Of a stretch of DNA of 64,000 nt, positions 15,274 to 61,820 are shown in pieces. The position numbers were made by a program, and so were the translations under genes. The notes beneath the pieces were generated by a model that was not told the DNA's origin, ran no database searches, and saw only the letters and a list, made by a program, of their open reading frames with translations. This stretch comes from Nocardia sp. NBC_00565 (GTDB taxonomy: Bacteria > Actinomycetota > Actinomycetes > Mycobacteriales > Mycobacteriaceae), in assembly GCF_036345915.1 (NCBI RefSeq), contig NZ_CP107785.1:1116001-1180000 (forward strand), read 5' to 3'. Each line of letters begins with the position of its first letter. The stretch's first letter is position 1.

Positions 15274-15330
15274 GGAAAAGTTGCCTCAGCAAGCCCCCCG
15301 AGAGAATCTGGGGTCGAACTGTGTGCGTGT

Positions 15331-15354
15331 GTTCTTTGAGAACTCAATAGTGTG
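15331..15354 (+). promoter_or_regulatory. rRNA leader box A-like antitermination element
   Basis: The segment GTTCTTTGAGAACTCAATAG is the strongly conserved actinobacterial rRNA leader box. A near copy (TGTTGTTTGAGAACTGCACA) lies at 17342-17361 before 23S. Such boxes load the Nus antitermination complex; that role is inferred from position and resemblance. Confidence 0.6.
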
Positions 15355-15527
15355 TCGATGAATGTCAGTGCCAAATGTTTTATTTGGTTCCGGCTCCTCA
15401 AACCCCCGTTTGGGTGGGTCGGACATTTTTGTCAGCAGATATTTTTTGCTGGCGTTTGATTTTGCCAAGGTTTTCGGACTCTGGTTAATTCTTCTGATTC
15501 GCCCTTTTGGGGTTGTTTCAAGAGTCT

Positions 15528-20512
<4,985 letters not shown>

Positions 20513-45089: not shown

Positions 45090-45166
<77 letters not shown>

Positions 45167-45181
45167 GGTCAGAGGTGGTTT

Positions 45182-45817
45182 TCATGATCCGACCACCCGG
45201 AGAGCGGGACCAGAACGGGACCGCAGATGCTGGGAGAGCTTGTCACCGGCTCCGGTGATCTCCTGGCGATCCGGGTGGAGGTACTTCTCCGTCGTTCGAC
45301 TGTCGGCGTGCCCGGCGATCTTCTGTAGGACGTGCAGGGAGACCCCGGCATCCGCCATCCAGGTCAGTCCGGTGTGGCGGAGATCGTGCCGGCGAAGGTG
45401 TTCGTAGCCGAGCTTTCCCACCACTTCATCCCAATGCGTCGCGTCTCGCAGCACACCTGTTGCGATCCGGCCGCCGCGCGGTCCACGGAACAGACGGGCA
45501 TCGGGTTTGTCCTCGCCGATCATGCTCAGCCGCTTGGACACCATGTCTCGGACTTCCTCGATGAGAGGGACGTACCGGGCACGATTTCCCTTGGTGCCCT
45601 TGTCATCCAGACCACCCGGTGACGGAGTCGTCTGGCGCCGAATCTGCCACGTCCAGGTCTTCGTGTCCATGTCGCGCACCCGGCAGCCGGATACCTCACC
45701 GATCCGGGATGCTGTGCACGCGGCGAACATAACCACGTCACCCCAACCTTGATACCGATCTGCCGAACGTTCAACTAGGGCATCGGCCAATGTCACCAGC
45801 GCGGTCCAGTTGGGCAA
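45182..45817 (-). CDS. Truncated tyrosine integrase (catalytic domain only)
   Basis: These 211 residues cover only the catalytic domain of a phage/ICE-type integrase. Arg lies in TASRIGEVSG, HDLRHTGLTWM, a GHADSRTTEKYLHPD end with the nucleophile tyrosine, and a likely catalytic lysine before it. The arm-binding and core-binding N-terminal domains are missing. Its 3' end lies 16 bases from the tRNA-Pro gene, the standard place for an integrase next to its attachment site. Probably a dead relic, though the catalytic residues are intact. Confidence 0.85.
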   Translation of the reverse strand: MPNWTALVTLADALVERSADRYQGWGDVVMFAACTASRIGEVSGCRVRDMDTKTWTWQIRRQTTPSPGGLDDKGTKGNRARYVPLIEEVRDMVSKRLSMIGEDKPDARLFRGPRGGRIATGVLRDATHWDEVVGKLGYEHLRRHDLRHTGLTWMADAGVSLHVLQKIAGHADSRTTEKYLHPDRQEITGAGDKLSQHLRSRSGPALRVVGS

Positions 45818-46398
45818 ACTGCGTCGCCCAGATAACCGTGCGGGTTCCGTGGGCGCTGCTGCGGGTGCGCAGTGGGCTCGACGAAGATGCCTTCGCGCGC
45901 TTGTTTGTTCACCCTTTGGCGCTACCGGGTGTCAGCGTGGCTGCGGTCGTCGGGAACTACTTTCGCGGAGTCGCCGCGCTGAACGCGAAGCAATCCGCGG
46001 ATCTCGAAGCATTGACCGCTCATGCGGTAGATCTGCTGGCATCGGTTATCTCTGTCGTTTCAGGTCACCACCCCGCTGGCGGTCCGGCGGGGTGGTGACG
46101 CACGTGAGCGAGTCCTTGCCCATCTCCGCAATCACCTGACCGACCCCGAACTGACGCCCGAGCGGGTTGCCGCGGCGTGCTCGATGTCGCGCAGCGCCGT
46201 ATACCGCGCGACCGAGATCGATGGTGGCATCGCAACACTGCTGCGGCGGCTACTGCTCGCAGGGCCGGACGCCACGATCGCGGCCATCGCAACTGCGTGT
46301 GGCTTTCCGGTGAGCGTCAGCTGTTTCGGGTCTTTCGGAGCGAAACCGGAATGAGTCCAGGAGAGTACCGGGCGAGGGACTGGGGCGCGTCTGACTGA
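45818..46398 (+). pseudogene. Frameshifted AraC-family regulator
   Basis: Three reading frames together give one AraC protein. VPWALLRVRSGLDEDAFARL starts the sensor part in one frame. HLTDPELTPERVAAACSMSR is the helix-turn-helix in a second. FRVFRSETGMSPGEYRARDW is the end in a third. The shifts fall near 46100 and 46315. The N-terminus is cut at the integrase junction. Confidence 0.75.
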
Positions 46399-46407
46399 GG
46401 TGCTGCC

Positions 46408-48099
<1,692 letters not shown>

Positions 48100-48113
<14 letters not shown>

Positions 48114-48831
48114 GGGCGACCACCGGTTTGATGAAATACAGGGCGACGCTCTTGCCGATGATCGGGTTGAGCAGCCGCTCGGCAGCCCGGGTAACCGTAG
48201 GAGCCGACATCATGTCCCACACGAGCATCCTGTGATAGGTGGTGACGGCGGGATGGGTGTCCTTGTCGACGCCGACGGCACATTTCAACCACCAGTACGG
48301 GGAGTGCAGGGCGTGGGCGAACTCATGGTGCAGGTAGCGCAGGCCGAGGTCGGTTACCTTGTCGCGGAGCTGGTTGGCGCGATAAATCCGCACGTGACCG
48401 CCTTCATTGGCGTGATAGCTGTCGGACAGAGCCCAACACAGCCGCTCAGGCAGCCAGCGGGGGACCGTAATCGCCAGGCGGCCACCAGGTTTGAGTATCC
48501 GTACCAGTTCGGCGATGGCCCGGGTGTCCTGGGGGACATGTTCGAGGATCTCCGAGGCGATGACAATGTCGAATTCGCCGTCGCCGTAGGGGAGTTCGAG
48601 CGCGTCGCCGCGCACGGTTTCGGCCTTGGCGTAGTCGGGCGCCTCGCCCGCCGCCGCCATGGCCTGGAACATGACATCGACATCGGCGAGATCGGTGACG
48701 CTCTGATCGAAAGCCACGATATCGGCGCCGCGCCGGTACGCCTCGAAGCTGTGGCGCCCGGCCCCGCACCCGACATCGATGACACGGGTTCCCGGCGCGA
48801 CTCCCAGTCGATCGAAGTCAACGGTCAGCAT
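48100..48831 (-). CDS. Class I SAM-dependent methyltransferase
   Basis: The 243-residue enzyme has motif I VIDVGCGAGRHSFEAYRRG (about 18-36), the acidic end of strand 2 in IVAFD, IASEILEHVPQDTRAIAEL and LKPGGRLAITVPRWLPERL. It belongs to the Methyltransf_11 group. A C-terminal extension rich in aromatic residues (about 165-243) may bind a lipid or glycan substrate. It overlaps the glycosyltransferase gene by seven bases. Confidence 0.85.
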
Positions 48832-50090
48832 GTCGCCTCCTGTGCAGCGGAAAGGGCAGCCGCAGTGCGGCCTTCATAGCGGTCGATGGCTTGCTCGTAG
48901 ACGGCAACGGTCCGTGCTGCGACGGCGGACCAGGCGAATGTCTCGAGCGCGCGGTGGCGGCTCAGCGCGCCCAAACGATGCCGGCGAACCGGGTGGTCGA
49001 GCAGATCACCGAGGACGCGGGTCATCGCGTCCACGTCGCCGGGTGCGACGAATTCGCCGCAATTCCCGACGACCTCCGGCAGGGCTCCGGCGTGACTCGC
49101 GACCAGCGGAGTGCCGCTTGCCATGGCCTCGACGGCGGGTAGCGAAAACCCCTCGTACATGGATGGAATACATGCGATCTCCGCGGAAGCGAGCAACTCG
49201 GCGAGTTGATCGTCGCTCAAACCACTGGTGGCGGTGACGATGTCGGTCAGCCCGAGTTCGGCGATGAGTTTCTCGGTGGGCCCGTTCGTTTCCAGTTTCG
49301 CAACCAGCTGTAGGTGGACCTCGCGTGTATGTCGCAGCTGGGCAACGGCTTTGAGTAGATGACCGATGCCCTTGAGGGGTTTGTCCGCGCTGGCCACCGC
49401 AACGATTCGACCGGGTATCCGAGGCTCTTGACGCGGTCGGAACAGTTCGGTGTCGACGCCCAGCGGCACGGTATCGAGTTGCGATCGTGCGACATCGAAG
49501 TCGGCGACGATGTCCTCGGCCGAGGACGACGACACCGTGATCAGATGCGGAATCTGGCGTGCTACCCGCTGTTGCATGTCGAGGAAGCCGTACCAACGGC
49601 GTACGAACGGCTTTCGCCGCCATGGAGCCGCGGCCAAGTCCACCTGGCGGTCCCGGATGATCGGGTGGTGGATGGTCGCCACCAGCGGCAGGCGCTGCGC
49701 GATGTCGAGCAGCCCGTAGCCGAGACACTGATTGTCGTGCACAACGTCGAAATCGCTTGTGCGTGCGGCGAGCAGCTTGGCTACACGCAAGCTGAAGGTG
49801 TGCGGCTCCGGAAATCCTGCCGTCCACATGGTGGCGAGTTCGAGTAGGTCGATCCGGTCGCGGATTTCCCGCGGATGGGGGGTGCGGAATGGGTTGTCAT
49901 CCCGATACAGGTCCAGGCTGGGCACCTCCGTGAGCAGCACCCGAGGATCGAGCAGTTCGGGGTAGGGCTGACCGGAGAACACTTCGACCGTGTGGCCGAG
50001 GTCTGCCAGTCCCTGACTCAGATACCGGACATAAACACCCTGTCCGCCACAGTGAGTCTTGCTGCGATAGGACAGCAGGGCTACGCGCAT
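48825..50090 (-). CDS. Family 4 glycosyltransferase
   Basis: The 421-residue GT-B enzyme has VALLSYRSKTHCGGQGVYVR at the N-terminus; GGQGVYVRYLSQGLADLGH is the glycine-rich acceptor loop (about 15-33). VVASADKPLKGIGHLLKA starts the nucleotide-sugar domain. The catalytic motif EGFSLPAVEAMASGTPLV lies near residue 310. It uses a nucleotide-activated sugar and retains the anomeric configuration. Start ATG 50090 fits the family. It is the first gene of the cassette, with a TetR-type inverted repeat 50-84 bases upstream. Confidence 0.87.
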   Translation of the reverse strand: MRVALLSYRSKTHCGGQGVYVRYLSQGLADLGHTVEVFSGQPYPELLDPRVLLTEVPSLDLYRDDNPFRTPHPREIRDRIDLLELATMWTAGFPEPHTFSLRVAKLLAARTSDFDVVHDNQCLGYGLLDIAQRLPLVATIHHPIIRDRQVDLAAAPWRRKPFVRRWYGFLDMQQRVARQIPHLITVSSSSAEDIVADFDVARSQLDTVPLGVDTELFRPRQEPRIPGRIVAVASADKPLKGIGHLLKAVAQLRHTREVHLQLVAKLETNGPTEKLIAELGLTDIVTATSGLSDDQLAELLASAEIACIPSMYEGFSLPAVEAMASGTPLVASHAGALPEVVGNCGEFVAPGDVDAMTRVLGDLLDHPVRRHRLGALSRHRALETFAWSAVAARTVAVYEQAIDRYEGRTAAALSAAQEATC

Positions 50091-50139: not shown

Positions 50140-50174
50140 TGTCCAGACACCTATGGTGGACATGTGTCTGGACA
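50140..50174. promoter_or_regulatory. TetR-type operator, copy 1 (glycosyltransferase operon)
   Basis: TGTCCAGACAC (50140-50150) and GTGTCTGGACA (50164-50174) are an exact 11-base inverted repeat with a 13-base centre. Read on the minus strand it is TGTCCAGACA, CA, TGTCC, the same layout as the copies at 57618, 57777 and 61234. Confidence 0.72.
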
Positions 50175-50329
50175 TTACTACCGCTAACTGTTTGCGACAA
50201 CTGTTCGTGTGGCCGGTGCGCGGAACGGCTTCGTCAGTCCATCCGGCGTGGCCAGGTCCTGTTGTCGGGTAACACGTGAATGCAGTAGGCCAGCGCCGCG
50301 ATCGCCGCCCAGGCCCGGCAGATTGCAGG

Positions 50330-50741
50330 TCTGATCCAGTTGGCCCCGCAGGATTCGATTCACGAAGTGTTCGGTTGAGCGCGCTCGGCGTGAAACCTCG
50401 GTGTATCCCAGTCCGGCGTTGAGCAACGCGCCCATGTAGATGGCCTCGAGCGTTTCCGCGGCAGTGGTGTCGGGTCGCGATCCCAAGGCGGCGTGGACTC
50501 TTTCCTGGACCGTGGGGGCGGTTCGGGCTCGAACTCGCGGCATTTCCGTGGCGGCTTTACGGGAGACTCTGCGTCGGCAGGGTTGAGTGCTCTTCGTCGG
50601 TAGCGGGCTCGGTCGTGCGGTGAGCCGTCGCCACAAGATCTCCGAGACCAGGAGGCGGTCGCTGCCGAAGAGGCGCAGCGCAATGGACAGCTTGATTCCC
50701 GCGACGGCTGCTGCGGCCCGGACGGTGAGGCCGTCGAGACC
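50330..50741 (-). pseudogene. Decayed third copy of the TetR regulator
   Basis: The minus frame gives GLTVRAAAAVAGI, LFGSDRLLVSEILWRRLTA and LEAIYMGALLNAGLGYTEVS. These align with TLRLVATAAGVG, YFSSKEHLISEVCWRRLVA and LQLLYSGALLQGGIGHLSYD of the intact regulator at 51312. The first ~25 residues are gone and the middle is degenerate. Its 5' end abuts the fadD fragment on the opposite strand. 50175-50330 holds nothing else I can support. Confidence 0.65.
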
Positions 50742-50754
50742 CCGCCGTGACCTG

Positions 50755-51237
50755 CCCCAAGGCCTGGACGGGGAAATCCAATTACGTGGAGTCACCGTCA
50801 CTCCCGGTTACTGGCGACGTGCGGACCTGAACCGAGAGGCCTTCACCGAGGACGGCTGGCTGCGCACCGGCGATATCGGTCACCTCGACGCCGATGGATT
50901 CCTGCACATCACCGGCCGAAGCAAGGAAATCGTCATCCGCGGTGGTGAGAACATCGCACCAGTGGAAATCGAGAACGTCGCTTACCGCAATCCCGGCGTC
51001 AAGGAAGCCGCCGCGTTCGATGTGCCCGACGACCTGATGGGCGAAGAACTGGCCCTGGTTTGTCACCCCAATCCCGGGACGACCCTGACCGAGAAAGAAC
51101 TACGAGACCACTTGCGGCTGACGTGGCCTGCCCACAAGGTCCCCAGATACATTCTGGTTTCCGAAATTCCGTTGCCCCGCAACGTGAGTGAGAAAATCAA
51201 CCGACTCGCACTGCGGAAGGGCTTCGTGATCGGCTGA
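50755..51237 (+). pseudogene. C-terminal fragment of an acyl-CoA synthetase (fadD)
   Basis: About 160 residues of the C-terminal domain of an AMP-forming ligase are present. GEIQLRGVTVTPGYWRRADL, DGWLRTGDIGHLDADGFLHI (A8/A9 hinge), GRSKEIVIRGGENIAPVEIE and a final catalytic lysine in SEKINRL are visible. The ATP-binding N-terminal domain is missing; the frame breaks at about 50745. TetR-A follows 75 bases later. Confidence 0.85.
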
Positions 51238-51311
51238 CTTTCTCTGCGTCACACGCGCTACCAGCTGGACAGATTGGTTTTGGAATCCAGACTGTCGTAG
51301 CGTCCATACGC

Positions 51312-51875
51312 ATGTCCACCGGATTCGAAGCCACCCGACGGCGCTTGACCGGCAAGCAGGCCGACACTGTCGATCGCTTGACTGCCGCGGCCGTGGAAGT
51401 GCTTGACCGCGAAGGATATTCGGGAACAACCCTCCGTCTAGTCGCCACCGCCGCGGGTGTCGGTACAGCCACCGCGTACACCTACTTTTCCTCCAAAGAG
51501 CACCTGATCTCCGAGGTGTGCTGGCGACGCCTGGTGGCGATGCCGGTTCCCGACATGGAGGGCCTGGACAGACTGGCGCGGGTGGACGCCGTGCTGCGGC
51601 AGGTATCGATGCTGGTCGCGGGGGAGCCCGCGCTGGCAAGCGCGGTCAGCAGCGCGTTGCTCGGTGACGATCCGGACGTGAAGCATCTGCGCGTGCGGAT
51701 AGGTACCGAGATTCGTAATCGGCTTGCTGATGCACTCGCTTCGGAGGATCGGGAAAGCCTCGACATACTTCAGCTGCTGTACTCCGGTGCACTGCTGCAA
51801 GGCGGCATCGGGCACCTTTCCTATGACCAGGTCGCTGATTTGTTGCAGGTCTGCGCCCGGCGGCTGCTCGGCTGA
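51312..51875 (+). CDS. TetR-family regulator A
   Basis: The 187-residue regulator has a helix-turn-helix at about 30-62: GYSGTTLRLVATAAGVGTAT and YTYFSSKEHLISEV. Its C-terminal ligand domain is about 80% identical by eye to TetR-B at 61257 and of equal length. It resembles Rv0767c, which as I recall sits by cyp123 in M. tuberculosis. A half-site (CAGCTGGACA, 51262-51271) lies upstream, but not the full operator found at TetR-B. It probably shares the regulon defined by the TGTCYRGACA sites. Confidence 0.87.
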   Translation: MSTGFEATRRRLTGKQADTVDRLTAAAVEVLDREGYSGTTLRLVATAAGVGTATAYTYFSSKEHLISEVCWRRLVAMPVPDMEGLDRLARVDAVLRQVSMLVAGEPALASAVSSALLGDDPDVKHLRVRIGTEIRNRLADALASEDRESLDILQLLYSGALLQGGIGHLSYDQVADLLQVCARRLLG

Positions 51876-51897
51876 CGGACAGGTCCCTCGCGGACGG

Positions 51898-52786
51898 TCA
51901 CCCGTGTTGGTGCTTCTCCATTAGTGAATGCAGTTCGGCAACCGACCACGGAAGTTCCCGATGGTGATCGCGATATCCGATCGGAACCAGCGCTGGTCGA
52001 GGGAAAGAGCCGACGAATCCGCCTGCGGCGATGAAGATTTCACCGGTGATCTGGTGGGCGGTGTCGGAGGCGAGGTACAGGTACAGCGGCGCCGCATACT
52101 CGGGAGGCGGCGCATCGAGCGATCCCTGCATGGTCAGTTCGTCGAGTAGGCCGCGGCGGTGCAGATCGCGGATGTGAGTCTCGTAGTCGGGACCGGTCGA
52201 CAGTCGTGTCCTGGCTCCTGGGCAGACGGCATTGACTCGTACTCCCGATTGCCGCATTTCGGCAGCCATCGCGAGCGTCAAGCTGATGACCGCGCCTTTT
52301 CCTGCGGGGTAGCCGGTGCCGCCGTAATCGCCGAGGTAGGCGAACGAATCCAGTATTGATGATCGAGCCGGACCCGCGAGCCACCATGAGCGGCGCAGCG
52401 GCCCGGCAGGTATTGAAGACCGTGGTCAGATGTGAATCGATCATTGTCTGCCAATCATCGGTGCTCACATCGAGAATCGACGAGCCGACAGGTTCGGCGA
52501 TCCCGGCGCAATTGACGAGTATGTCGACGTTGTCGTAAGCAGATGTACACGCCGCTATGAGCCGTCCGGCGACGACCTCATCGGCCGCGGATCCCGCAAC
52601 TCCCTGCGCACTACCGCCGGCGCCGCGGATTGTCTCCACCGCCCGCTGTACCGCTGCCTCGTTTCGCGAGTTGATCACAACGCCTGCGCCGTGTTCGGCA
52701 AGTAGCTCGGCAACTGCGAGCCCGATACCGCTGCCCCCGCCGACTACGACAGCGCCTCGTCCGGACAATGCTTGCTGTTCGGTCAC
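51898..52786 (-). pseudogene. SDR dehydrogenase with a one-base frameshift
   Basis: The N-terminal part (GTG 52786, then VVVGGGSGIGLAVAELLAEH and INSRNEAAV, NCAGIA) and the C-terminal part (FAYLGDYGGTGYPAGKGAV, with catalytic Tyr and Lys, then VRVNAVCPGARTRL) are in different frames. Deleting one A of the AA at 52347-52348 restores a continuous SDR of about 295 residues. It is either a recent pseudogene or a sequencing error. Apart from the shift nothing looks damaged. Confidence 0.78.
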
Positions 52787-52915
52787 TTTCGATCTCCTCT
52801 GGTTTCGTGCACACGTGACGGCGGACGCGGCATCGCGCAATACCGGCCCGCCGATCACGGTCTCCGGGAGTGACGGTGACACCGCCCAAAGCTTTTGTGT
52901 CGGACATGCATTCGA

Positions 52916-53773
52916 TCAGTCGGTCGGCGTCATCTCGGCTACTTTTCCGGCCAGCCGGTCGAGGTACCGGAGCACGTCGTCAGCGGATCGGTCGGGCAGG
53001 CCATAGAGAACGTCGGTGACACCGTCTTCGGCCCAGCGGGAGAGCGTGTCGCGGTCGGCCTTGAAGGCCAGTGCGACGACGCGTGGTCGACCCGTGCGCC
53101 CGGCCTCGGTCCAGGTCTTGTGCAGCAACGCGATTCGGGCCGAGATATCGGTCTCGGTGGGTGTGGTGATCCAGCCGTCGCCGGTCCGGGCGATCCACTG
53201 GAAGGTCTTCTCGGTCCCGGCCGCGCCGATCAGCACCGGGATATGTGACTGGACCGGTTTAGGCCAGGCCCAGCTGGGACCGAACGAGACGTAGTCGCCC
53301 TGATAGCTGGCTTCTTCCTCGGTCCACAATTGGCGCATCGCCTCGATGTACTCGCGCAGCACGGTCCTCCGTTTGTTCGGTGGAACGCCGTGATCGGTGA
53401 GTTCGTCTGTGTTCCAACCGAAGCCGGCACCGAGGGTGACGCGCCCACCGGACAGATGGTCGAGACTGGCCAGAGTTTTGGCCAGGGTGATCGGGTCGTG
53501 CTCCACCGGCAGTGCTACCGCGGTGGACAGTTCGATCCGTTCGGTTACCGCCGCCGCCATGGCCAGCGACACCCAAGGGTCCAGTGTGCGGGTGTAGCGG
53601 TCATCGGGCAGCGTGGCGTCTCCGGTGGAGGGATGTGCTGCTTCGCGTTTGATGGGGATGTGGGTGTGCTCGGGGACGAAGAACGACGAGAAACCGCGTT
53701 CTTCGGCTGCCGCTGCGGCGGCAGCTGGCGTGATGCCACGGTCGCTGGTGAAAAGTACGACGCCGGATCGCAT
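52916..53773 (-). CDS. F420-type luciferase-like oxidoreductase
   Basis: The 285-residue LLM protein has GFSSFFVPEHTHIPI near residue 25, RTLDPWVSLAMAAAVTERIE near 60, and LSGGRVTLGAGFGWNTDEL near 105. IPVLIGAAGTEKTFQWIART and a final DVLRYLDRLA follow. This is the TIGR03619-like F420-dependent branch common in mycobacteria and nocardiae. ATG 53773 follows AGAAAGAGG. It ends the minus-strand arm of the cluster and probably performs an F420H2-dependent redox step. Confidence 0.87.
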   Translation of the reverse strand: MRSGVVLFTSDRGITPAAAAAAAEERGFSSFFVPEHTHIPIKREAAHPSTGDATLPDDRYTRTLDPWVSLAMAAAVTERIELSTAVALPVEHDPITLAKTLASLDHLSGGRVTLGAGFGWNTDELTDHGVPPNKRRTVLREYIEAMRQLWTEEEASYQGDYVSFGPSWAWPKPVQSHIPVLIGAAGTEKTFQWIARTGDGWITTPTETDISARIALLHKTWTEAGRTGRPRVVALAFKADRDTLSRWAEDGVTDVLYGLPDRSADDVLRYLDRLAGKVAEMTPTD

Positions 53774-53798
53774 GGTGAATAGCCTCTTTCTGTCCTGG

Positions 53799-54071
53799 TC
53801 AGTCGCGCGCGGCGGCCATACCCGCACGCCGCCCGTAGAAGCTGCCGTCGCCGAGTGAGGCGCCGCTGACATAGCCGCCGGTGCAGATTCCCGCTGTGCA
53901 CCGACCTGCGGCGTAGAGGCCGGGAATCGAATCGCCTGTCTCGGTGAGCACACGTCCGTCGAGATCGGTGCGTAGCCCGCCGAGCGGGAATCCCGCTGTG
54001 AATCCCCGCATGTCGGCGGTGGCACTCCATTCCGCGATCTCGGAGATATGCTGCGGTTGTTCGTCTTTCAC
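53799..54071 (-). pseudogene. C-terminal remnant of an FAD-binding dehydrogenase
   Basis: These 90 residues are the last part of a fumarate-reductase/ketosteroid-dehydrogenase-type flavoprotein: FTAGFPLGGLRTDLDGRVL and the FAD-contact IPGLYAAGRCTAGICTGGYV plus SGASLGDGSFYGRRAG. Full members have about 500 residues. GTG 54071 overlaps the previous stop as GTGA, so the remnant is still set up for coupled translation. An in-frame deletion is the likely origin. Confidence 0.72.
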
Positions 54072-54457
54072 GACTTCTTACGCCGTTCTTGCGACAACAC
54101 GGTACCGATCGCGGAATCCAGCTTGGTGCCCGCCGGCCAGCCGACGTAGTGGCACAGAAAGATCGCTATCTCGCGAAGCTGTTCCTCGGTGAGCTCGTTG
54201 TTCCGTAGTGCGGCGCCCACCTGAATCTCGGCGACGTCGAAAAGGCCTGTAGCGGTGAGGGCTCCGAGCAGCAGCAGTCGCCGGTCCCGGTCGGTCAGCA
54301 CCGCACGTGACCAGATGTCGCCGAACAGATGATCGGCGGTGAGAGCGAAGTGCTCGCCGGGGCCGTCCGCGAACTCCCAGCCGTAAACCTCGCTCATCCT
54401 GGCAAGTCCGCGTTGCCGACTTTCGCTGGGGGAGTGGGTATTCGTGTCGGAGGTCAT
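54068..54457 (-). CDS. Carboxymuconolactone decarboxylase-like protein
   Basis: The 129-residue CMD/AhpD-fold protein shows ALTADHLFGDIWSRAVLTDR, LLLLGALTATGLFDVAEIQV and the CMD core LREIAIFLCHYVGWPAGTKL. The core has only one cysteine and not the CxxC of AhpD, so a decarboxylase/isomerase or structural role fits better than peroxidase. A strong GGAGAAGGAGA site precedes ATG 54457. It corresponds to Rv0771 in the aldA-Rv0769-Rv0770-Rv0771 order of M. tuberculosis (from memory). Confidence 0.85.
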   Translation of the reverse strand: MTSDTNTHSPSESRQRGLARMSEVYGWEFADGPGEHFALTADHLFGDIWSRAVLTDRDRRLLLLGALTATGLFDVAEIQVGAALRNNELTEEQLREIAIFLCHYVGWPAGTKLDSAIGTVLSQERRKKS

Positions 54458-55341
54458 GATGTCTCCTTCTCCAGTGGAAGCTCGGCGACGCCGAGACCGG
54501 CCGCCAGATGGCTGAGCGCCAGCCGCGCGAGCGGTAGGTCGGTGTCGAGCCGTTCGCCCAGTTCGAGTGCGAGTGCGAGGTCCTTCTCGCCCAGATCGCG
54601 GACGTGGCCGAGGATGAGAAACCAGAAGTCGTCGGGTGCGACGGGGGCCGTGGTGTTGCGCAGCATGATGGCCCCCGCCCCGCCGGTGATGGAATCGGAA
54701 TGCCGAACCACCTTGCCGAGGGCACTGATATCGAGGCCCGCGTGCTCGGCGAGTCGTTGCGCCTCCGTTGCGGCGGTGAAGGAAACGAAGTGAAGCAGGT
54801 TGCGAGCCAGCTTCATTCGCGTTCCCGAGCCCACCACTCCGGCATGCACGATCAGATCCGAGAAACACCGGAATGGTGCCCGGATGCGTTGCACCGCAGC
54901 GTCCGTGCCGCCGACCATAACGGCGAGTGTGCCGCGATTGGCTGCCGGTGCGCCGCCGCTGACGGGCGCATCTACGAATTCCACCTCGTGGTCCGCGCAC
55001 GCCGCCGCGAGCTTTTCCGCAGTGACGTCGCTGATGGTCGAGTGCACCGCGATCACGGTTCCCGGCGCAGCGGTGCGCAGCAGACCGTTGGGGCCGGTCA
55101 CCACATCACACACCTGGGCATCATCGATGACGGTCACACAAATCACCCGTGCGGTGGCGGCGAGCTCCGCGGGGTTGGCCGCGGAGCTCGCACCGGCGTC
55201 GGTGAACGGCAGTGTCGCCTCGGGCCGTACGTCGCACACGGTCAGGCCACCGGGCCATTGCAGCAGCCGCTGGGCCATGGGCGCGCCCATATTGCCGAGT
55301 CCGATGAACCCGACCGGGACGTCGTATTCGGAATCGCCCAT
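54454..55341 (-). CDS. 3-hydroxyisobutyrate dehydrogenase-like NAD(P) oxidoreductase
   Basis: The 295-residue beta-hydroxyacid dehydrogenase has the Rossmann motif VGFIGLGNMGAPMAQRLLQW (about 10-29). The substrate signature FVDAPVSGGAPAANRGTLAV lies near 120, and the catalytic lysine in GSGTRMKLARNLLHFV near 175. It reduces or oxidises a hydroxy acid or aldehyde intermediate; the true substrate is unknown. It overlaps its neighbours (ATGA downstream, TGATG upstream). It resembles Rv0770. Confidence 0.88.
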   Translation of the reverse strand: MGDSEYDVPVGFIGLGNMGAPMAQRLLQWPGGLTVCDVRPEATLPFTDAGASSAANPAELAATARVICVTVIDDAQVCDVVTGPNGLLRTAAPGTVIAVHSTISDVTAEKLAAACADHEVEFVDAPVSGGAPAANRGTLAVMVGGTDAAVQRIRAPFRCFSDLIVHAGVVGSGTRMKLARNLLHFVSFTAATEAQRLAEHAGLDISALGKVVRHSDSITGGAGAIMLRNTTAPVAPDDFWFLILGHVRDLGEKDLALALELGERLDTDLPLARLALSHLAAGLGVAELPLEKETS

Positions 55342-56090
55342 CACCGGATGATCTGTCCGCCGTCGACGTTCAGAATCTGGCCCGTAACCCACCCGGCGTC
55401 ATCGGAGAGCAGATAAAGGCAGGCGCCAACCAGATCCTCGGGAGTGCCCATGCGCTTGATCGGGATACGAGAGACCATCTCCTTGACCATCTTCCCGGGG
55501 GTGACGGTCTGGGTGGCCTCGGTGTCGATCGGGCCGGGCGCGATGGCGTTGACCCGGATATTGGATCCACCGAGCTCGGTGGCCAACTGCTGGGTGAGGC
55601 CGTTGATGCCGACCTTGGCCAGACCGTAGAACCCGGAGTAAAGCCATGCGGCGGTGGAGGATTGATTGACGATCGAACCGCCGCTGGCGGTGACCATGTG
55701 CTGCCACACCGCGCGAGTGACATTCAGTGCGCCGTCGAGGTTCACACCCATGAACTTCTTGTAGTAGTCCCATGGGACCGTCAGCAGCAGGTCGAGCTTC
55801 ATATCGCCGTAGATGGCGGCATTGTTGACCAGGTGGTTGATGCCACCGAATTCGGCAACGGTGAATTCGGCCAGCTCGCTGGCAGATTCGGGATTGGAGA
55901 CATCGACGCGCCGGTAGAGGGCGGTGCCTCCGTCGGCGACGATCTGCTTGGCCACGTCCTCACCACGCTCGGCGTTGAGGTCGGCGACGACCACCTTCGC
56001 GCCCTCGGCAGCGAGTGCCTTGGCGTAGACGGCTCCGATGCCCTGCGCGGCGCCGGTGACGATTGCGGTGCGCCCATTGAAACGTGCCAT
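55341..56090 (-). CDS. Short-chain dehydrogenase/reductase
   Basis: The 249-residue classical SDR has TGAAQGIG (12-19), the NNAA structural motif, catalytic Ser in SIVNQSSTAA, and Tyr-x3-Lys in YGLAK near residue 155. VNAIAPGPIDTEAT and a C-terminal ILNVDGGQIIR follow. It should oxidise a secondary alcohol with NAD(P). It is the second gene of the minus-arm operon, 36 bases after the aldehyde dehydrogenase gene, as Rv0769 is beside aldA. Confidence 0.9.
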   Translation of the reverse strand: MARFNGRTAIVTGAAQGIGAVYAKALAAEGAKVVVADLNAERGEDVAKQIVADGGTALYRRVDVSNPESASELAEFTVAEFGGINHLVNNAAIYGDMKLDLLLTVPWDYYKKFMGVNLDGALNVTRAVWQHMVTASGGSIVNQSSTAAWLYSGFYGLAKVGINGLTQQLATELGGSNIRVNAIAPGPIDTEATQTVTPGKMVKEMVSRIPIKRMGTPEDLVGACLYLLSDDAGWVTGQILNVDGGQIIR

Positions 56091-56126
56091 GGTGTTCAGC
56101 TCCTTGTGCTGGAAGAGGATTGGGGA

Positions 56127-57596
56127 TCAGGCGGGAGTGGCGACGAGCTTGGTTTCGAGGTATTCCTCGAACCCGGCCACGCCCATTTCGCGGCCGATTC
56201 CGGATTGCTTGTAGCCGCCGAACGGCGCGTCGGCGTGGTACCAGAGCCCGCCGTTGACGCTGAGGGTTCCGGTGCGGACGCCCGATACCACCTTCTCGAT
56301 ACGGTCAGGGTCCTTGCCCCAGACCGAACCTGATAGGCCGTAAGGGGATTCGTTGGCCATGCGGACCGCGTCGGCATCGCCGTCGTGCGCGATCACGACC
56401 AGAACGGGACCGAAGATCTCCTCTTGGGCCACCGTCGAGGTATTGCCGAGATCGGCGATCACGGTCGGTTCGATGAAGTAGCCACGGTCGCGGCTGGCGG
56501 GTCGTCCGCCTCCGGTCACGATGCGCCCGCCCTCGGAGCGAGCGATATCGAGATAGCGTTCGACCCGATCGCGCTGCGCGGCGGATATCAAAGGCCCGCA
56601 AATGGTTCCAGGTTTCGTCGGATCCCCGGCCCGGATTCCTGACATCGCCGCCGCTGCTGCTGCGACCGCATCGTCATAGGCGGAACGCGGCACCAGCAGC
56701 CGGGTGGTGAGCGCACAGCCCTGCCCGGCGTGGATCGCAACGGAGAACGCGGTGTAACTCGCGGCCGCGGCAATGTCCGCATCGTCGAGCACGATCGCGG
56801 CGGACTTGCCCCCGAGCTCGAGGAACGTGCGTTTGATCATCGGAGCCGCACCGGCCATGACCGATCGACCGGTCCGGGTGGATCCGGTGAACGTGACCAT
56901 ATCGACTCGAGGATCTTCCACGAGCTGGGCGCCGAGAGCGTGGTTGTCGGAGGTGACGATGTTGATCACGCCGGCGGGAATGTCGGTGTGTTCGACGATC
57001 AACGAGCCGAGCACTGCGGCGCACCAGGGCGTATCCGGTGCGGGTTTGAGAACGACGGTGTTGCCGGCGGCCAGTGCCGGGCCGAGTTTTGCCAGGTTGA
57101 TCTGGTGCGGAAAATTCCACGGCGTGATCGCTCCGACGACGCCGACGGCTTCCCTGCGAACGGTGCGCCGACTGTTGATGCCCATTTGCTCGGCATCGCC
57201 GAGATCTGTTTTCCAGCTGTAGTTTTCGGACAAATCCGCAGCGAAGGACAGATCGGCGATGGGACCTTCTAATTGCGGTCCGCTGGTGAGCATGACCGGT
57301 GCGCCGACCTCCCCGACGGTGATCTCGCGCAGTTCGTCGATGCGGTTCTGCATGGCGCCGCGCAACTGGCGCACGCAATGGGCGCGAAAAGCGTGATCGC
57401 GGGACCACTCGGTGGTGTCGAAGGCCGTCCGCGCGGCATTGATGGCGGCGTCCATGTCATCGGCGGAGGCATTGGCGGCGTGGCCGAGTACCTCCTCGGT
57501 GGCGGGATTGATCGTCGCGAACACACCCGATCCACCGGGGACCAGCTTGCCGCCGATCAGCAGGGGAGTGCCTTCTGCGGGGACAAGATCGTTCAT
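56127..57596 (-). CDS. Aldehyde dehydrogenase (AldA-like)
   Basis: The 489-residue NAD-dependent aldehyde dehydrogenase shows GAITPWNFPHQINLAKLGPA near residue 150 and FTGSTRTGRSV. The general-base glutamate lies in FLELGGKSAAIVLDDAD, the catalytic cysteine in AGQGCALTTRLLV near 293, and EEIFGPVL near 385. It is the first gene of the minus arm and divergent from the P450 gene. A TetR-type operator lies 22 bases before its start. It probably oxidises the aldehyde formed from P450 hydroxylation and SDR action. Confidence 0.92.
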   Translation of the reverse strand: MNDLVPAEGTPLLIGGKLVPGGSGVFATINPATEEVLGHAANASADDMDAAINAARTAFDTTEWSRDHAFRAHCVRQLRGAMQNRIDELREITVGEVGAPVMLTSGPQLEGPIADLSFAADLSENYSWKTDLGDAEQMGINSRRTVRREAVGVVGAITPWNFPHQINLAKLGPALAAGNTVVLKPAPDTPWCAAVLGSLIVEHTDIPAGVINIVTSDNHALGAQLVEDPRVDMVTFTGSTRTGRSVMAGAAPMIKRTFLELGGKSAAIVLDDADIAAAASYTAFSVAIHAGQGCALTTRLLVPRSAYDDAVAAAAAAMSGIRAGDPTKPGTICGPLISAAQRDRVERYLDIARSEGGRIVTGGGRPASRDRGYFIEPTVIADLGNTSTVAQEEIFGPVLVVIAHDGDADAVRMANESPYGLSGSVWGKDPDRIEKVVSGVRTGTLSVNGGLWYHADAPFGGYKQSGIGREMGVAGFEEYLETKLVATPA

Positions 57597-57617
57597 ACAT
57601 GGACTCCGATAGTATGA

Positions 57618-57639
57618 TGTCTGGACAGGTGTTCGGAAT
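57618..57639. promoter_or_regulatory. TetR-type operator, copy 2 (aldehyde dehydrogenase promoter)
   Basis: TGTCTGGACA (57618-57627), GG, TGTTCGGAAT (57630-57639). The layout is the same as the copies at 61234 and 57777, and it is 22 bases before the aldehyde dehydrogenase start. Confidence 0.72.
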
Positions 57640-57753
57640 ATAGTTCGGATATGTCACCGAGCGCAAGAACGGGTTCGTGAAGTCGCCTGTGTGCAAGCAG
57701 TTTCTTTGCTGTGCCCGGATCTGTTCGCAGCTCTGTAGTCGAGTTCGCCGTTG

Positions 57754-57798
57754 TGTCGGACTGATGTCGATGATACTGTCCAGACAGATGTCCAGCTA
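57754..57798. promoter_or_regulatory. TetR-type operator array, copy 3 (P450 promoter)
   Basis: TGTC starts at 57754, 57765, 57777 and 57789, so at 11-12 base steps, about one helix turn. The best copy is TGTCCAGACA (57777-57786), GA, TGTCCAG (57789-57795). It is 69 bases before the P450 start. Confidence 0.68.
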
Positions 57799-57866
57799 TG
57801 TGTCTCTTTGGGTCGGTGTCCCGGCTCGGCCCGGAGGAATGCACGATCGAAATCGAGGTATGCGTG

Positions 57867-59072
57867 ATGACTTCGGCCTCACTGGAGCCGTTCACGTTCG
57901 ATCCGTACGACTACCGGTTCCATGACGACCCGTACCCGACTTATGCGCGTTTGCGCGCCGAGACTCCGCTGTATCACAACCCGGAGCTCGACTTCTGGGC
58001 GCTGTCACGGCACGCCGACGTCATGGCGGGCTTCCGCGATACCGTGCGGCTCTCCAGCGCGAACGGGGTGTCACTGGATCCGGCTGCTTGGGGGCCGCAC
58101 GCGTATCGGACGATGTCCTTTCTCGCGATGGACGATCCGCGGCATGTGCGGATGCGTCGTCTGGTCTACAAGGGCTTCACGCCCAAGCGTGTGACCGAGA
58201 TGGACAACCGCATCCATGCGCTGACGCTCGAGCATCTCGAACCCGCGCTCGAGCGTGAATCTTTCGACTGGATCGAGGATTTCGCCGGCAAACTGCCCAT
58301 GGACGTCATTTCCGAGCTCATGGGTGTGCCCGAATCGGATCGCGCTGAAATCCGCAGGCTCGCCGACCTGGTCGTACATCGAGAGGAGGGCGTCCTCGAT
58401 GTGCCGATGCCCGCGATGGACGCGGCCGTCCGGCTGTTCACCTACTACGGCGAGATGGTCGCAGAGCGTCGGGCCCGCCCCAGCGACGATCTCACTTCGG
58501 CGTTGCTGGATGCGGAGATCGACGGTGACCGCCTCTCGGACGAGGAAATCATCGGGTTCATGTTCCTGATGGTCGTGGCCGGAAACGAGACCACCACAAA
58601 GCTTTTGGGCAATGCGCTGTACTGGGCCGCACGTAATCCGGATGAGTACGCGAAGGTTGTCGCCGATCCCAGCCTGGTTCCGGACTGGGTCGAGGAAACG
58701 TTGCGTTACGACACCTCCAGTCAACTCGTCGCCCGCAGCGCGGCCACGGATTTCGAGATGTACGGCAGCACCATCCCCATGGGAGCAAAGGTGCTGTTGC
58801 TCATCGGCTCCGCCAATCGGGACTCGGAGGTCTTCGACGACGCCGACAGCTTCCGCATCGATCGCGCGGACAAAGGCAATCTCGCCAGTTTCGGTGCGGG
58901 CGTGCACTTCTGTCTCGGCGCGCACCTGGCCCGCCTCGAGACCACCATCGCCTTGCGCGAATTCGTCTCGCGGGTGCCACATTACGAACTCATCGAGGCC
59001 GGTATCGAACGGGTCCACTCGACCAATGTGCGCGGCTTCGCCAAACTGCCCATCCGAGTTGAGGTTTCCTGA
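57867..59072 (+). CDS. Cytochrome P450, CYP123-like
   Basis: The 401-residue soluble P450 has the I-helix oxygen-activation motif MVVAGNETTTKL (about 234-245), the ExxR pair in EETLRYDTS, and the heme-binding FGAGVHFCLGAHLARLE (about 343-359). Phrases such as GKLPMDVISELMGVPESD and HSTNVRGFAKLPI agree with M. tuberculosis CYP123 as I recall it. The neighbouring SDR and ferredoxin copy the cyp123 locus too. ATG 57867 follows GAGG at eight bases. The substrate is unknown; a lipid or terpenoid is a guess. Confidence 0.9.
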   Translation: MTSASLEPFTFDPYDYRFHDDPYPTYARLRAETPLYHNPELDFWALSRHADVMAGFRDTVRLSSANGVSLDPAAWGPHAYRTMSFLAMDDPRHVRMRRLVYKGFTPKRVTEMDNRIHALTLEHLEPALERESFDWIEDFAGKLPMDVISELMGVPESDRAEIRRLADLVVHREEGVLDVPMPAMDAAVRLFTYYGEMVAERRARPSDDLTSALLDAEIDGDRLSDEEIIGFMFLMVVAGNETTTKLLGNALYWAARNPDEYAKVVADPSLVPDWVEETLRYDTSSQLVARSAATDFEMYGSTIPMGAKVLLLIGSANRDSEVFDDADSFRIDRADKGNLASFGAGVHFCLGAHLARLETTIALREFVSRVPHYELIEAGIERVHSTNVRGFAKLPIRVEVS

Positions 59073-59074
59073 AC

Positions 59075-59872
59075 ATGCCACGTTTCGAACCGCATCCGGT
59101 GCGACGACCGGTCCTGATCGCGGGAGCGTCCTCCGGGATCGGCTCGGCTACTGCGGAGATGCTTGCCGAGCAGGGATATCCGGTAGCGCTGGGCGCCCGC
59201 CGCGTCGAGGAATGTGAACGGCTGGCCGAAAAGATCACGGCCGCTGGCGGTGCGGCTTTCGCGCACTATCTCGACGTCACCGACACCGCTTCGGTCGATG
59301 AGTTCGTGTTCGCCGCCGAGCGGGCACTGGGTCCCGCCGAGATCGTAGTCTCCGGAGCCGGCGATCTCGAATTCGGATTGATTCACGAGATGAGCAGCGA
59401 GCAGTTCGCCAAGCAGGTCGATGTGCACCTGATCGGCGCGCACCGGCTGGTACGACGCGTCATCCCGGACATGATCACGCGGGGCCGCGGGGATTTCGTG
59501 CTGATCAGCTCTGACTGCGCCGATGCACCGCGTCCACGCGCGGGCGCCTACAGTGCGGCCAAGACCGGACTCGAGGCCATGGCCAACCAGATGCGAATGG
59601 AGCTCGAGGGCACCGGCGTTCGGGTCAGTCTGGTTCGACCCGGTGCGACGAAGACCGGTATGGGCCTCACCGCGCCCGCCGAGGTTGTGGGACCGCTTAT
59701 CGAGGACTGGATTGCCTGGGGGTTCGCCCGGCATCCGTACATGTTGCGGCCGAGGGATATGGCCGCTGCCGTTTCTTCGGTTGTTTCGACACCTCCGGGC
59801 AGCCATCTCGTCCTGGTCGAGGTGCAACCGGGCGTACCGAAGAAAGTGGCCGAATCCGGGAGTGGCGCATGA
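59075..59872 (+). CDS. Short-chain dehydrogenase (Rv0765c-like)
   Basis: The 265-residue SDR has AGASSGIGSATAEMLAEQGY (about 16-35). Ser lies in FVLISSDCADAPRPRAG and Tyr-x3-Lys in YSAAK near residue 165. The usual NNAG is replaced by SGAG, a mild deviation. The gene starts three bases after the P450 stop and overlaps the ferredoxin gene by ATGA. It probably oxidises the P450 product. Confidence 0.88.
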   Translation: MPRFEPHPVRRPVLIAGASSGIGSATAEMLAEQGYPVALGARRVEECERLAEKITAAGGAAFAHYLDVTDTASVDEFVFAAERALGPAEIVVSGAGDLEFGLIHEMSSEQFAKQVDVHLIGAHRLVRRVIPDMITRGRGDFVLISSDCADAPRPRAGAYSAAKTGLEAMANQMRMELEGTGVRVSLVRPGATKTGMGLTAPAEVVGPLIEDWIAWGFARHPYMLRPRDMAAAVSSVVSTPPGSHLVLVEVQPGVPKKVAESGSGA

Positions 59873-60069
59873 AGATTCATGCTGACCTGGACCTGTGTCA
59901 GGGGCACGCGGTCTGCCAGGCGGAAGCGCCCGAGGTGTTCACGGTTCCCAAGCGCGGCAAGGTCGAGATCCTCGACCCCACCCCCGGGACCGACGCACGC
60001 GCCGGTGTCGAGAATGCCGTGCGCTATTGCCCCACGCAGGCGCTCACACTCACTGACGGCGACAGCTGA
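59869..60069 (+). CDS. 3Fe-4S-type ferredoxin
   Basis: The 66-residue ferredoxin has cysteines in CQGHAVC (10 and 16) and YCP (about 54). The second position of the usual CxxC is a histidine-alanine gap, so a [3Fe-4S] cluster is expected, as in P450 partner ferredoxins such as Rv0763c. It is translationally coupled to the SDR gene and should feed electrons to the P450. Confidence 0.92.
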   Translation: MKIHADLDLCQGHAVCQAEAPEVFTVPKRGKVEILDPTPGTDARAGVENAVRYCPTQALTLTDGDS

Positions 60070-60122
60070 ACCGCTCCATTCCCACCAATACAATTCTTTG
60101 CCTCCACGAAAGGACCACTGCC

Positions 60123-60674
60123 ATGGCTGAATTCGATCGCGCTGAACTCGACGAGATGGTGCAACGCTGGGTGCAGGCCAATAAGGACTGCGAAGCCAAA
60201 GGCGATTGGAAGCCGCTGGTCGACTTCTACACCACCGATGCCACCTACGGCTGGAACTACGGGCCCAAGCAGGAATTCATGGCCGTCGGCCGTGATGAGA
60301 TCCGTGATTACGCGCTCGGTACCGAGATGGAGGGTCTCGAAGGGTGGGTCTATACCTACCAGCACTTCGTCATCGATGAACGCAGCGGTGACGTCATCGG
60401 ATTGTGGAAGCAGATCAGTGATGCGACCCGTGCCGACGGCAGCAACTACTCGCCGGAAGGCATCGGGGGCAGCTGGTTTCGCTACGCCGGTGATTTCCAA
60501 TGGTCGTGGCAGCGCGACTTCTTCGACTTCGGGAACGTGGGCGCGCTGTTCATGGAGATGATCACCAACAACGCGTTGTCCGATGGCATGCAGAAGCGCA
60601 TCCAGCGCGCGACCTCGAGTGCGCCGTTGCCCGGCTGGTACCGGATCGGCCAAGGTCCAGTACCGCTGTGGTGA
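60123..60674 (+). CDS. SnoaL/NTF2-like protein
   Basis: The 183-residue protein has an NTF2-like fold pattern: a helical start ELDEMVQRWVQANKDCEAKG, DWKPLVDFYTTDATYGWNYG, then strands with FVIDERSGDVIGLWKQIS. It is rich in tryptophan and tyrosine, consistent with a hydrophobic ligand pocket. Relatives include isomerases, cyclases and epoxide hydrolases. It follows the ferredoxin gene and precedes a broken fadD. The function is not known. Confidence 0.78.
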   Translation: MAEFDRAELDEMVQRWVQANKDCEAKGDWKPLVDFYTTDATYGWNYGPKQEFMAVGRDEIRDYALGTEMEGLEGWVYTYQHFVIDERSGDVIGLWKQISDATRADGSNYSPEGIGGSWFRYAGDFQWSWQRDFFDFGNVGALFMEMITNNALSDGMQKRIQRATSSAPLPGWYRIGQGPVPLW

Positions 60675-60710
60675 CCCGGTTCCGACGAGACCCATCGAGA
60701 GAATAATCCC

Positions 60711-61180
60711 GTGGCAAACAACTTTGCTGACCTGTTCGAGCACGCCGTAGACGCGATGCCCGATCGTATTGCTCTGATCAGTGGCGGCCGCCGTGTTTCC
60801 TATATCGAGCTCGAGAGGCGGGCAAACCAGCTCGCCGATTACTTCGGCTCGCTCGGCGTGGGTGCGGGGACGCACATCGGTTTCCAAATGCACAACAGCA
60901 TCGAGACCGTCGAGATGTGGCGGGTGCTCGGCGGTGGAATCGACTTTTACACGGGTGAATTCCTCGCCGTACCACCAGTCGCGCGTCGGGGCCCAGAACG
61001 ATCCATTGACATGGCTGGTGTTGCCGCCGTTGATCAATGCCGCGGCGTTCATGCCCACGTTCATCGCGTCGTGGTCGGGCAATTCGGTGGTTCTCGAGTC
61101 GAAGTTCGACCCGGTGCGAGCGTGGGGCCTGGTGGAGCGGGAACGACCCCACGTCATGGTCATCACGGGGCGATTCGGTT
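60711..61180 (+). pseudogene. N-terminal fragment of an acyl-CoA synthetase (fadD), deleted and frameshifted
   Basis: The first 67 codons encode a normal start (NFADLFEHAVDAMPDRIALI, SYIELERRANQLADYF, IGFQMHNSIE). The frame then jumps to MWRVLGGGIDFYTGE, missing about 110-130 family residues. After another shift comes WLVLPPLINAAAFMPTFIAS, SVVLESKFDPVRAWGLVERE, RPHVMVITG. The C-terminal half is lost. GTG start at 60711. The type is FadD17/FadD19-like, i.e. long-chain or steroid side-chain ligases. Confidence 0.8.
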
Positions 61181-61233
61181 GGCAAGCGATGAATCCGCGT
61201 GTGCTAATGGTTCAAGACAGTAGTCGGTAGTAA

Positions 61234-61255
61234 TGTCTAGACATATGTCCGAAAT
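61234..61255. promoter_or_regulatory. TetR-type operator, copy 4 (tetR-B start)
   Basis: TGTCTAGACA (61234-61243, a perfect palindrome), TA, TGTCCGAAAT (61246-61255). It ends one base before the GTG that I take as the tetR-B start, so it would repress its own regulator. Confidence 0.75.
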
Positions 61256-61256
61256 A

Positions 61257-61820
61257 GTGTCACCGGGGACCGAAGCCACACGGCGACGGCTGACCGAGAA
61301 GCAGGCCGACACCGTTGATCGCCTGACCGCCGCAGCGGTCGAAGTGCTTTCCCGAGAAGGATACTCAGGCACCACGGTGCGGCTCGTTGCCGCCGCCGCG
61401 GGGGTCGGTACGGCCACCGCATACACCTATTTCTCCTCCAAGGAACACCTCATCGCCGAAGTGTATTGGCGGCGATTGGTGGTCGCACCGCTCCCCGACA
61501 TGGAGGGCCTGGACCAAGTTGCCCGCGTCGGCGCCGTCCTGCGCCAGGTATCGATGCTGATCGCCGACGAGCCCGCCCTGGCCGGCGCGGTCAGCAACGC
61601 GCTCCTGGGTGACGATCCGGATGTCAAGCACCTGAGGGTCCGAATCGGCGCCGAGATCCGCGGCAGGCTCAGTCGCGCACTCGGTTCCGAAGAGACCGAG
61701 ACGCTCAGCATCCTCGAGCTCCTCTACGCCGGCGCACTGCTACACGGCGGCATGGGGCATATTTCCTACAGCGAAGTCGCCGACCTGCTGGAGGCCTGTG
61801 TCCGGCGGTTGTTGGGCTGA
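61257..61820 (+). CDS. TetR-family regulator B
   Basis: A 187-residue close paralogue of TetR-A with the same helix-turn-helix (GYSGTTVRLVAAAAGVGTAT, YTYFSSKEHLIAEV). GTG 61257 is chosen because it aligns exactly with the start of TetR-A (SPGTEATRRRL against STGFEATRRRL). ATG 61233 and 61245 are in frame but would lie inside the operator. It is probably the main repressor of the P450/aldehyde dehydrogenase regulon. A CoA thioester ligand is plausible given the flanking fadD relics. Confidence 0.87.
   Translation: MSPGTEATRRRLTEKQADTVDRLTAAAVEVLSREGYSGTTVRLVAAAAGVGTATAYTYFSSKEHLIAEVYWRRLVVAPLPDMEGLDQVARVGAVLRQVSMLIADEPALAGAVSNALLGDDPDVKHLRVRIGAEIRGRLSRALGSEETETLSILELLYAGALLHGGMGHISYSEVADLLEACVRRLLG

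Follow-up and report, generated by a model that had tools for sequence, protein, structure and literature searches.

A candidate TetR operator shared by aldehyde dehydrogenase, cytochrome P450 and CYP51 genes in Nocardia sp. NBC_00565 and its relatives

Here we describe a candidate operator in a 64,000-nucleotide stretch of the Nocardia sp. NBC_00565 genome (contig NZ_CP107785.1, positions 1,116,001 to 1,180,000 of the forward strand; hereafter the window), where four copies of a 17-bp motif, TGTCYRGACANNTGTYC, stand among the genes for two TetR-family regulators (TetR-A and TetR-B), an aldehyde dehydrogenase (ALDH), a cytochrome P450 and a glycosyltransferase cassette. Judged from sequence comparison, the four sites very probably serve as operators for TetR-B and its paralogues, self-regulating repressors that we assign to the mycobacterial Rv0767c group, and the proposal that one operator is read by the TetR pair and defines a regulon is well supported by such comparison. 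That support comes from the co-occurrence of site and TetR across 301 genomes, from the presence of a site at most tetR starts, and from the enrichment of sites upstream of ALDH, P450 and CYP51 genes. The regulon is real, ordinary in kind, well conserved and usefully linked to CYP51.

Within the window the motif occurs without mismatch at 50158-50174 (minus strand) and at 57618-57634, 57777-57793 and 61234-61250 (plus strand), and these are the only matches at up to two mismatches; shuffled versions of the window gave a mean of 0.52 matches, and 0 of 100 shuffles reached four. The original prediction, which proposed four sites of shared layout, was right about them and about their start positions, and wrong about their ends, giving spans of 19-22 bp for what its own layout makes a 17-bp element. 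At the glycosyltransferase, TGTCCAGACACATGTCC (50158-50174) lies 68-84 bp upstream of the likely start (ATG 50090), and a second palindrome, TGTCCAGACA (50140-50149), stands beside it in the promoter region. The copy TGTCTGGACAGGTGTTC at 57618-57634 is 22 bp upstream of the start of the divergent, minus-strand ALDH gene, TGTCCAGACAGATGTCC at 57777-57793 is in the P450 promoter together with a TACTGT hexamer (57774-57779), and TGTCTAGACATATGTCC at 61234-61250 overlaps the tetR-B start, as had been claimed, with a TAATGT hexamer at 61231-61236. To these we add a degenerate copy absent from the earlier account, CGTCCATACGCATGTCC at 51301-51317 (plus strand, three mismatches), which covers the tetR-A start codon (ATG 51312). 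Two further half-sites suggested earlier, at 51262-51271 and 52898-52906, are not among the matches at up to three mismatches and were dropped as regulon members.

Across the whole 9.71 Mb genome the motif has 13 exact matches, where base composition predicts 0.08 and the reversed pattern has none. The margin narrows once up to two mismatches are allowed (116 matches, and 61 for the reversed control), so that only exact or near-exact matches are informative by themselves. The clusters of exact copies are found at 1166-1191 kb, 3188 kb, 3374-3378 kb and 3871-3873 kb; allowing one mismatch brings in groups at 5967 kb and 7597 kb. The site groups coincide with partly decayed copies of one gene set, the most complete of which is the locus at 5961-5972 kb, others being decayed; CYP51 was not seen in that most complete copy. 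Five TetR genes lie in the site groups, namely TetR-B and four paralogues 66-80% identical to it, and the start of each bears a site with zero to three mismatches, the paralogue at 3876576-3877136 sharing the arrangement of tetR-A, with two mismatches in its site where tetR-A has three. TetR-A and TetR-B had been called near-identical; they share 80% identity, and the three other relatives lie elsewhere in the genome. Likewise, the probable local regulon first proposed holds as a regulon and fails as a local one, with site groups found genome-wide and family-wide.

One-mismatch matches at 2112622, 6899354 and 9026965 are away from recognised target genes and were treated, without proof, as chance. 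Near the one-mismatch sites at 1185562 and 1186686 are genes for a short-chain dehydrogenase (SDR) of the HpnA/3-beta-HSD kind and a transhydrogenase (L042:2115-7073), which are possible further targets; the SDR (1185582-1186625) was rejected as the sterol demethylase SdmB (NF052578), scoring 146.7 bits against a cut-off of 600. A degenerate half-site array with three mismatches (genome 7594874-7594909; L048:6874-6909) lies about 50 bp upstream of Mce-type genes and is offered as a lead only, and a second array with one mismatch (7596667-7596695) precedes another P450. A search of plasmids with TetR-B matched two records, and the one inspected has no annotated features there.

Among relatives, we analysed 77 loci, mostly of Nocardia, drawn from the best 80 of 194 TetR-B relatives. 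They hold 38, 129 and 133 sites at zero, one and two mismatches, and the reversed control matched 0, 0 and 3 times. Taking the interval from -350 to +30 around the gene start, we found a site with at most one mismatch for 30/30 ALDH and 27/33 P450 genes in the named loci, and for 33/87 TetR genes (64/87 at up to two mismatches). At the same one-mismatch limit the remaining classes gave 7/25 for ferredoxin (Fdx), 9/40 for CMD, 9/49 for P450b, 5/33 for LLM, 4/28 for SDR_0769, 3/30 for HIBDH, 3/38 for the glycosyltransferase (GT), 2/32 for NTF2 and 1/23 for SDR_0765, and none for FAD dehydrogenase (0/20), AMP ligase (0/19), SDR2 (0/10), ADH (0/6) and TetR3 (0/3). In no class did the reversed control match at this limit; with up to two mismatches allowed it picked up a single TetR and a single ALDH. 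By these counts the prominent targets are ALDH and P450, GT being a target in a minority of cases, and a search without preset targets returned the same leading families. These loci were picked for holding the TetR and are no test of its absence; in 301 genomes drawn evenly from the family, however, the exact site was present in 93/197 genomes with the TetR and in 5/104 without it (Fisher p 7e-16). In this sample there were 140 exact matches against 18 for the control, 12 of the latter in TetR-bearing genomes. In related genomes, whose search had been called for originally, the site is enriched upstream of ALDH, P450 and CYP51 and tracks the TetR.

A further comparison comes from the ALDH loci of one genus, probably Mycobacterium (30 loci from the 35 matches listed). 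In 28/30 the ALDH promoter carries a variant near CTGGACANNTGTCC, with two mismatches, and in 16/30 there is a second, separate variant site, whereas the reversed control was never better than four mismatches. The same 28 loci encode, divergently from ALDH, a TetR that shares 38-45% identity with TetR-B, and the two loci without variant site or TetR hold second ALDH paralogues. This variant suggests that the minimal operator is RGACANNTGTYC and that the outer TGTC is less fixed.

The link to CYP51 lies outside the window, the nearest such gene being 14 kb beyond tetR-B. Within stretches L041-L051 of this genome, the only ones in which CYP51 was sought, we found at least three stand-alone CYP51 genes (L042:11216-12568, L044:7314-8708 and L046:7986-9509), each with an exact site beginning 51-55 bp upstream of its start; the copy at 1191216 matches structure 1e9x (Rv0764c) over its full length (769.9 bits, residues 3-440). 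In the relatives' loci, CYP51 genes whose start is in view bear a site in 25/34 cases at up to one mismatch and 28/34 at up to two, against 0/34 for the control, and 24 of these 28 keep it about 55 bp upstream. The six without a site come from five Rhodococcus loci and one Skermania locus, and in the three of these whose gene order was examined CYP51 is inside the operon. The order in Rhodococcus loci L096 and L103, TetR-P450-SDR-CYP51-ferredoxin, matches the M. tuberculosis list printed in a table of PMC10470581 (Rv0763c, cyp51, Rv0765c, cyp123, Rv0767c, aldA, Rv0769, Rv0770, Rv0771).

Operator and promoter appear to be fused. Among 239 distinct sites, 158 have a TANNNT hexamer beginning exactly three bases before the site, while no other offset among the 18 tested accounts for more than 8. 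Because the motif itself supplies the final T of the hexamer, the phase test covers TA only, and TA is still strongly phased. At ALDH the site is in the opposite orientation, just upstream of that gene's own TACTAT hexamer (57609-57614, minus strand). On tetR the arrangement extends to the start codon: in 61/77 loci the interval from -60 to +40 around the matched tetR start contains a site with two mismatches or fewer, which in 52 of these 61 falls within 3 bp of one position, and in the 58 that run in the gene's direction bases 12-14, within the third half-site, are an in-frame ATG (33) or GTG (25), a geometry from which a leaderless tetR message would follow. The offset from site to start codon is likewise fixed in 30 sites of the 301-genome sample chosen for lying together with a TetR start, which is no measure of its frequency. 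This comparison also bears on the start of tetR-B (61245-61820, plus strand), whose open reading frame (ORF) could begin at ATG 61233 as well: in 58 relatives the position equivalent to 61233 is ATG or GTG in 7/58 and that equivalent to 61245 in 58/58, so that ATG 61233 is probably not the start and ATG 61245 is preferred.

Both regulators score above the Pfam cut-off of 24 for TetR_N, TetR-B with 54.8 bits and TetR-A (187 aa; 51312-51875, plus strand) with 50.6. The TetR-B model has the all-helical TetR fold (pLDDT 81.4), with TetR-family structures in the top ranks, and its predicted fold is closest to that of KstR, the cholesterol repressor. TetR-B is nevertheless only 22-24% identical to KstR (Rv3574), and the KstR operator, TnnAACnnGTTnnA, differs from the operator here; FadR-type acyl-CoA-responsive TetRs are less similar than KstR. 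By analogy with QacR-like paired-dimer binding, two dimers might fit on the overlapping palindromes, which are spaced 6 bp apart. A system of this kind is already known from mycobacteria. In PMC6593523, a palindromic motif X occurs in phytosterol-induced operons of one Mycobacterium strain, where 12/14 operons with it rise more than 3-fold on phytosterol; the authors matched it to a predicted Rv0767c site (method of PMC4482099), and it lies near the start codon of the Rv0767c orthologue G155_05115, for which autoregulation was suggested. In both Rv0767c/G155_05115 and the present system a palindromic site is found close to the start of the TetR gene itself, the former having cyp123, cyp51 and aldA as neighbours, and in the window P450, SDR, Fdx and ALDH genes of the Rv0767c-group neighbourhood are present with the TetR. 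The likening to motif X follows its published description. Unlike the Rv0767c system, the one here has five paralogues, a third half-site, at least three separate operator-bearing CYP51 copies and a glycosyltransferase cassette. A literature search of titles and abstract openings found no description of this operator in Nocardia among the matches listed. New here are the extension to Nocardia, Rhodococcus and others, the constant geometry of promoter and operator, the operators on stand-alone CYP51 and the five-paralogue expansion.

We read the TetR-B branch, on its sequence, as a probable autoregulated, KstR-like repressor of a CYP51/P450/ALDH regulon, a new branch of a known kind. A TetR dimer would recognise TGTC/GACA half-sites two bases apart in the layout TGTC-yr-GACA-nn-TGTC, with RGACANNTGTYC as its minimal core, and on the tetR site it would cover the -10 region and the transcription start. 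With the site starting within the -10 hexamer and, on tetR, reaching into the start codon, repressor on the DNA should keep RNA polymerase from the promoter. Release should come from a lipid inducer, for which a sterol-derived acid or its CoA thioester is the likeliest candidate, and would turn on the P450/ferredoxin and ALDH operons, CYP51 and tetR; in some lineages, this one among them, it would also turn on the glycosyltransferase cassette.

Several observations count against this proposal. The TetR-B structure model was built from five sequences only, and membership of the KstR family (NF033703) was rejected at 38.7 and 38.6 bits against a cut-off of 280. According to PMC6593523, neither M. 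smegmatis nor R. jostii RHA1 showed increased expression of most of the phytosterol-responsive genes, and induction by sterols may thus not hold everywhere; in PMC4482099 the Rv0767c motif, with an e-value of 1.2E-14, fell short of the authors' own significance cut-off. At the start of tetR, 16/77 loci have nothing better than three mismatches between -60 and +40. In the 301-genome sample, 104/197 TetR-bearing genomes are without the exact motif, for which one- and two-mismatch variants account in the loci read, these being part of the genomes, and five genomes have the exact site and no TetR at threshold; moreover, co-occurrence alone is no proof of the binder, as the TetR and its targets are linked genes.

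Of the other explanations, the one that fares best accepts the operator and changes the ligand, holding that the regulon answers aldehyde or redox stress and that ALDH and P450 detoxify. The genes Rv0762c-Rv0771 of M. tuberculosis do change together in work on aldehyde accumulation and copper; yet CYP51, the KstR-like predicted fold and the phytosterol induction of motif-X operons (PMC6593523) point instead to sterol-like lipids, and we think the stress response unlikely. It is more doubtful still, to the point of being improbable, that the sites belong to another regulator, for example an unlinked TetR, with TetR-A and TetR-B as bystanders. TetRs are numerous in this genome (64 matches to TetR-B at E <= 0.001), the locus itself encodes a third, different TetR-like ORF (205 aa; 50184-50801, minus strand; 29-32% identical to the TetR-B paralogues), and a separate publication assigns the M. 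tuberculosis Rv0762c-Rv0771 locus to Rv0576 on the strength of a prediction. Against a foreign regulator, it is at the start of this very TetR that 61/77 loci have a site, the site tracks TetR presence across 301 genomes, and GAC and GTC are enriched at the Rv0767c ChIP sites (Minch 2015 data, as given in PMC10312376). Finally, a mobile repeat or a recombination scar that has dispersed along with the cluster duplications and regulates nothing might be suspected from the duplicated, partly decayed clusters here and from the nearly identical ~24 bp around the sites at 50174 and 61225, but it is barely credible given that conservation falls off beyond ~25 bp in 159 distinct sites with unrelated genes downstream, that the hexamer phase is fixed, and that site-bearing CYP51 genes so consistently keep the site ~55 bp upstream.

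The glycosyltransferase cassette deserves separate treatment within the TetR-B regulon as we propose it. Its head gene (48825-50090), for which all glycosyltransferase models scored below cut-off, is followed on the same minus strand by the remainder at 46408-48831, comprising a methyltransferase gene (48100-48831), a gene for a 345 aa protein with no assigned function (47076-48113) and a last methyltransferase gene (46408-47106). Relatives of the four proteins are grouped in Mycobacterium shimoidei (L125; 59-72% identical, the glycosyltransferase 72%), whose homologous start also supports ATG 50090, and in a second copy in our own genome (L044; 62-75%, the glycosyltransferase 75%); there the last gene is on the opposite strand. 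The M. shimoidei group has a one-mismatch site before the glycosyltransferase and an exact site on the adjacent tetR start, and the second own copy has one-mismatch sites before the glycosyltransferase (3381241) and before the last methyltransferase (3385088). The cassette is thus a genuine but lineage-limited target, and the link drawn to it originally stands in that both own copies carry the site, the cassette being a minority target in relatives. The site at 3381241 falls between a ferredoxin-reductase-like gene and the second glycosyltransferase copy (L044:13552-15108, 15302-16612), a position from which a P450 redox partner may share the operator. Adjoining the cassette in the window, at 45090-46100, are a tRNA-Pro gene and, immediately after it, a minus-strand gene that reads, by eye, like a phage-type integrase; such a pair is a usual mark of a genomic island edge.

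The remaining genes around the sites were assigned by family models and by position. On the minus strand, the ALDH (56127-57596) belongs to the Rv0768 family (TIGR04284, 880.1 bits, cut-off 775) and is accompanied by an SDR in the Rv0769-like position (55341-56090, by family-model search), a 3-hydroxyisobutyrate-dehydrogenase-like gene in the Rv0770-like position (54454-55338, below curated NCBIfam cut-offs) and a carboxymuconolactone-decarboxylase-like gene in the Rv0771-like position (54068-54460, below curated cut-offs). On the plus strand are the P450 (57867-59072; Pfam p450, CYP123-like by position only), an SDR in the Rv0765c-like position (59075-59872, by family-model search), a single-cluster ferredoxin in the Rv0763c-like position (59869-60070, by Pfam search) and a SnoaL/NTF2-like protein (60123-60674; SnoaL_2 22.3 bits, below the Pfam cut-off of 27). 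Between intact genes lie fragments of AMP-ligase and FAD-dehydrogenase genes (50587-51237, 53799-54071 and 60711-61223), and such fragments here and elsewhere in the genome point to duplication of the cluster and its partial decay.

Through the operator, gene-cluster copies that are not linked can be read as a single regulon and followed from genome to genome. In the review PMC6469627, the physiological role of M. tuberculosis CYP51 is given as unknown and a complete sterol pathway as lacking; with a conserved repressor and a readable operator, the ligand that releases the repressor should point to the molecule that the CYP51 regulon serves. More tentatively, and with less confidence than we place in the operator itself, we suggest that a KstR-like TetR clade predating the split of Nocardia, Rhodococcus and Mycobacterium might be a dedicated lipid-sensing repressor of bacterial CYP51, acting through a 20-bp block that unites -10 hexamer, operator and, on tetR, a leaderless start codon. 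If this is true, its inducer would identify the natural substrate that actinobacterial CYP51 still lacks. This might be a sterol or triterpenoid (imported, 14-methylated or of plant type) that undergoes oxidation and, in some lineages, glycosylation.

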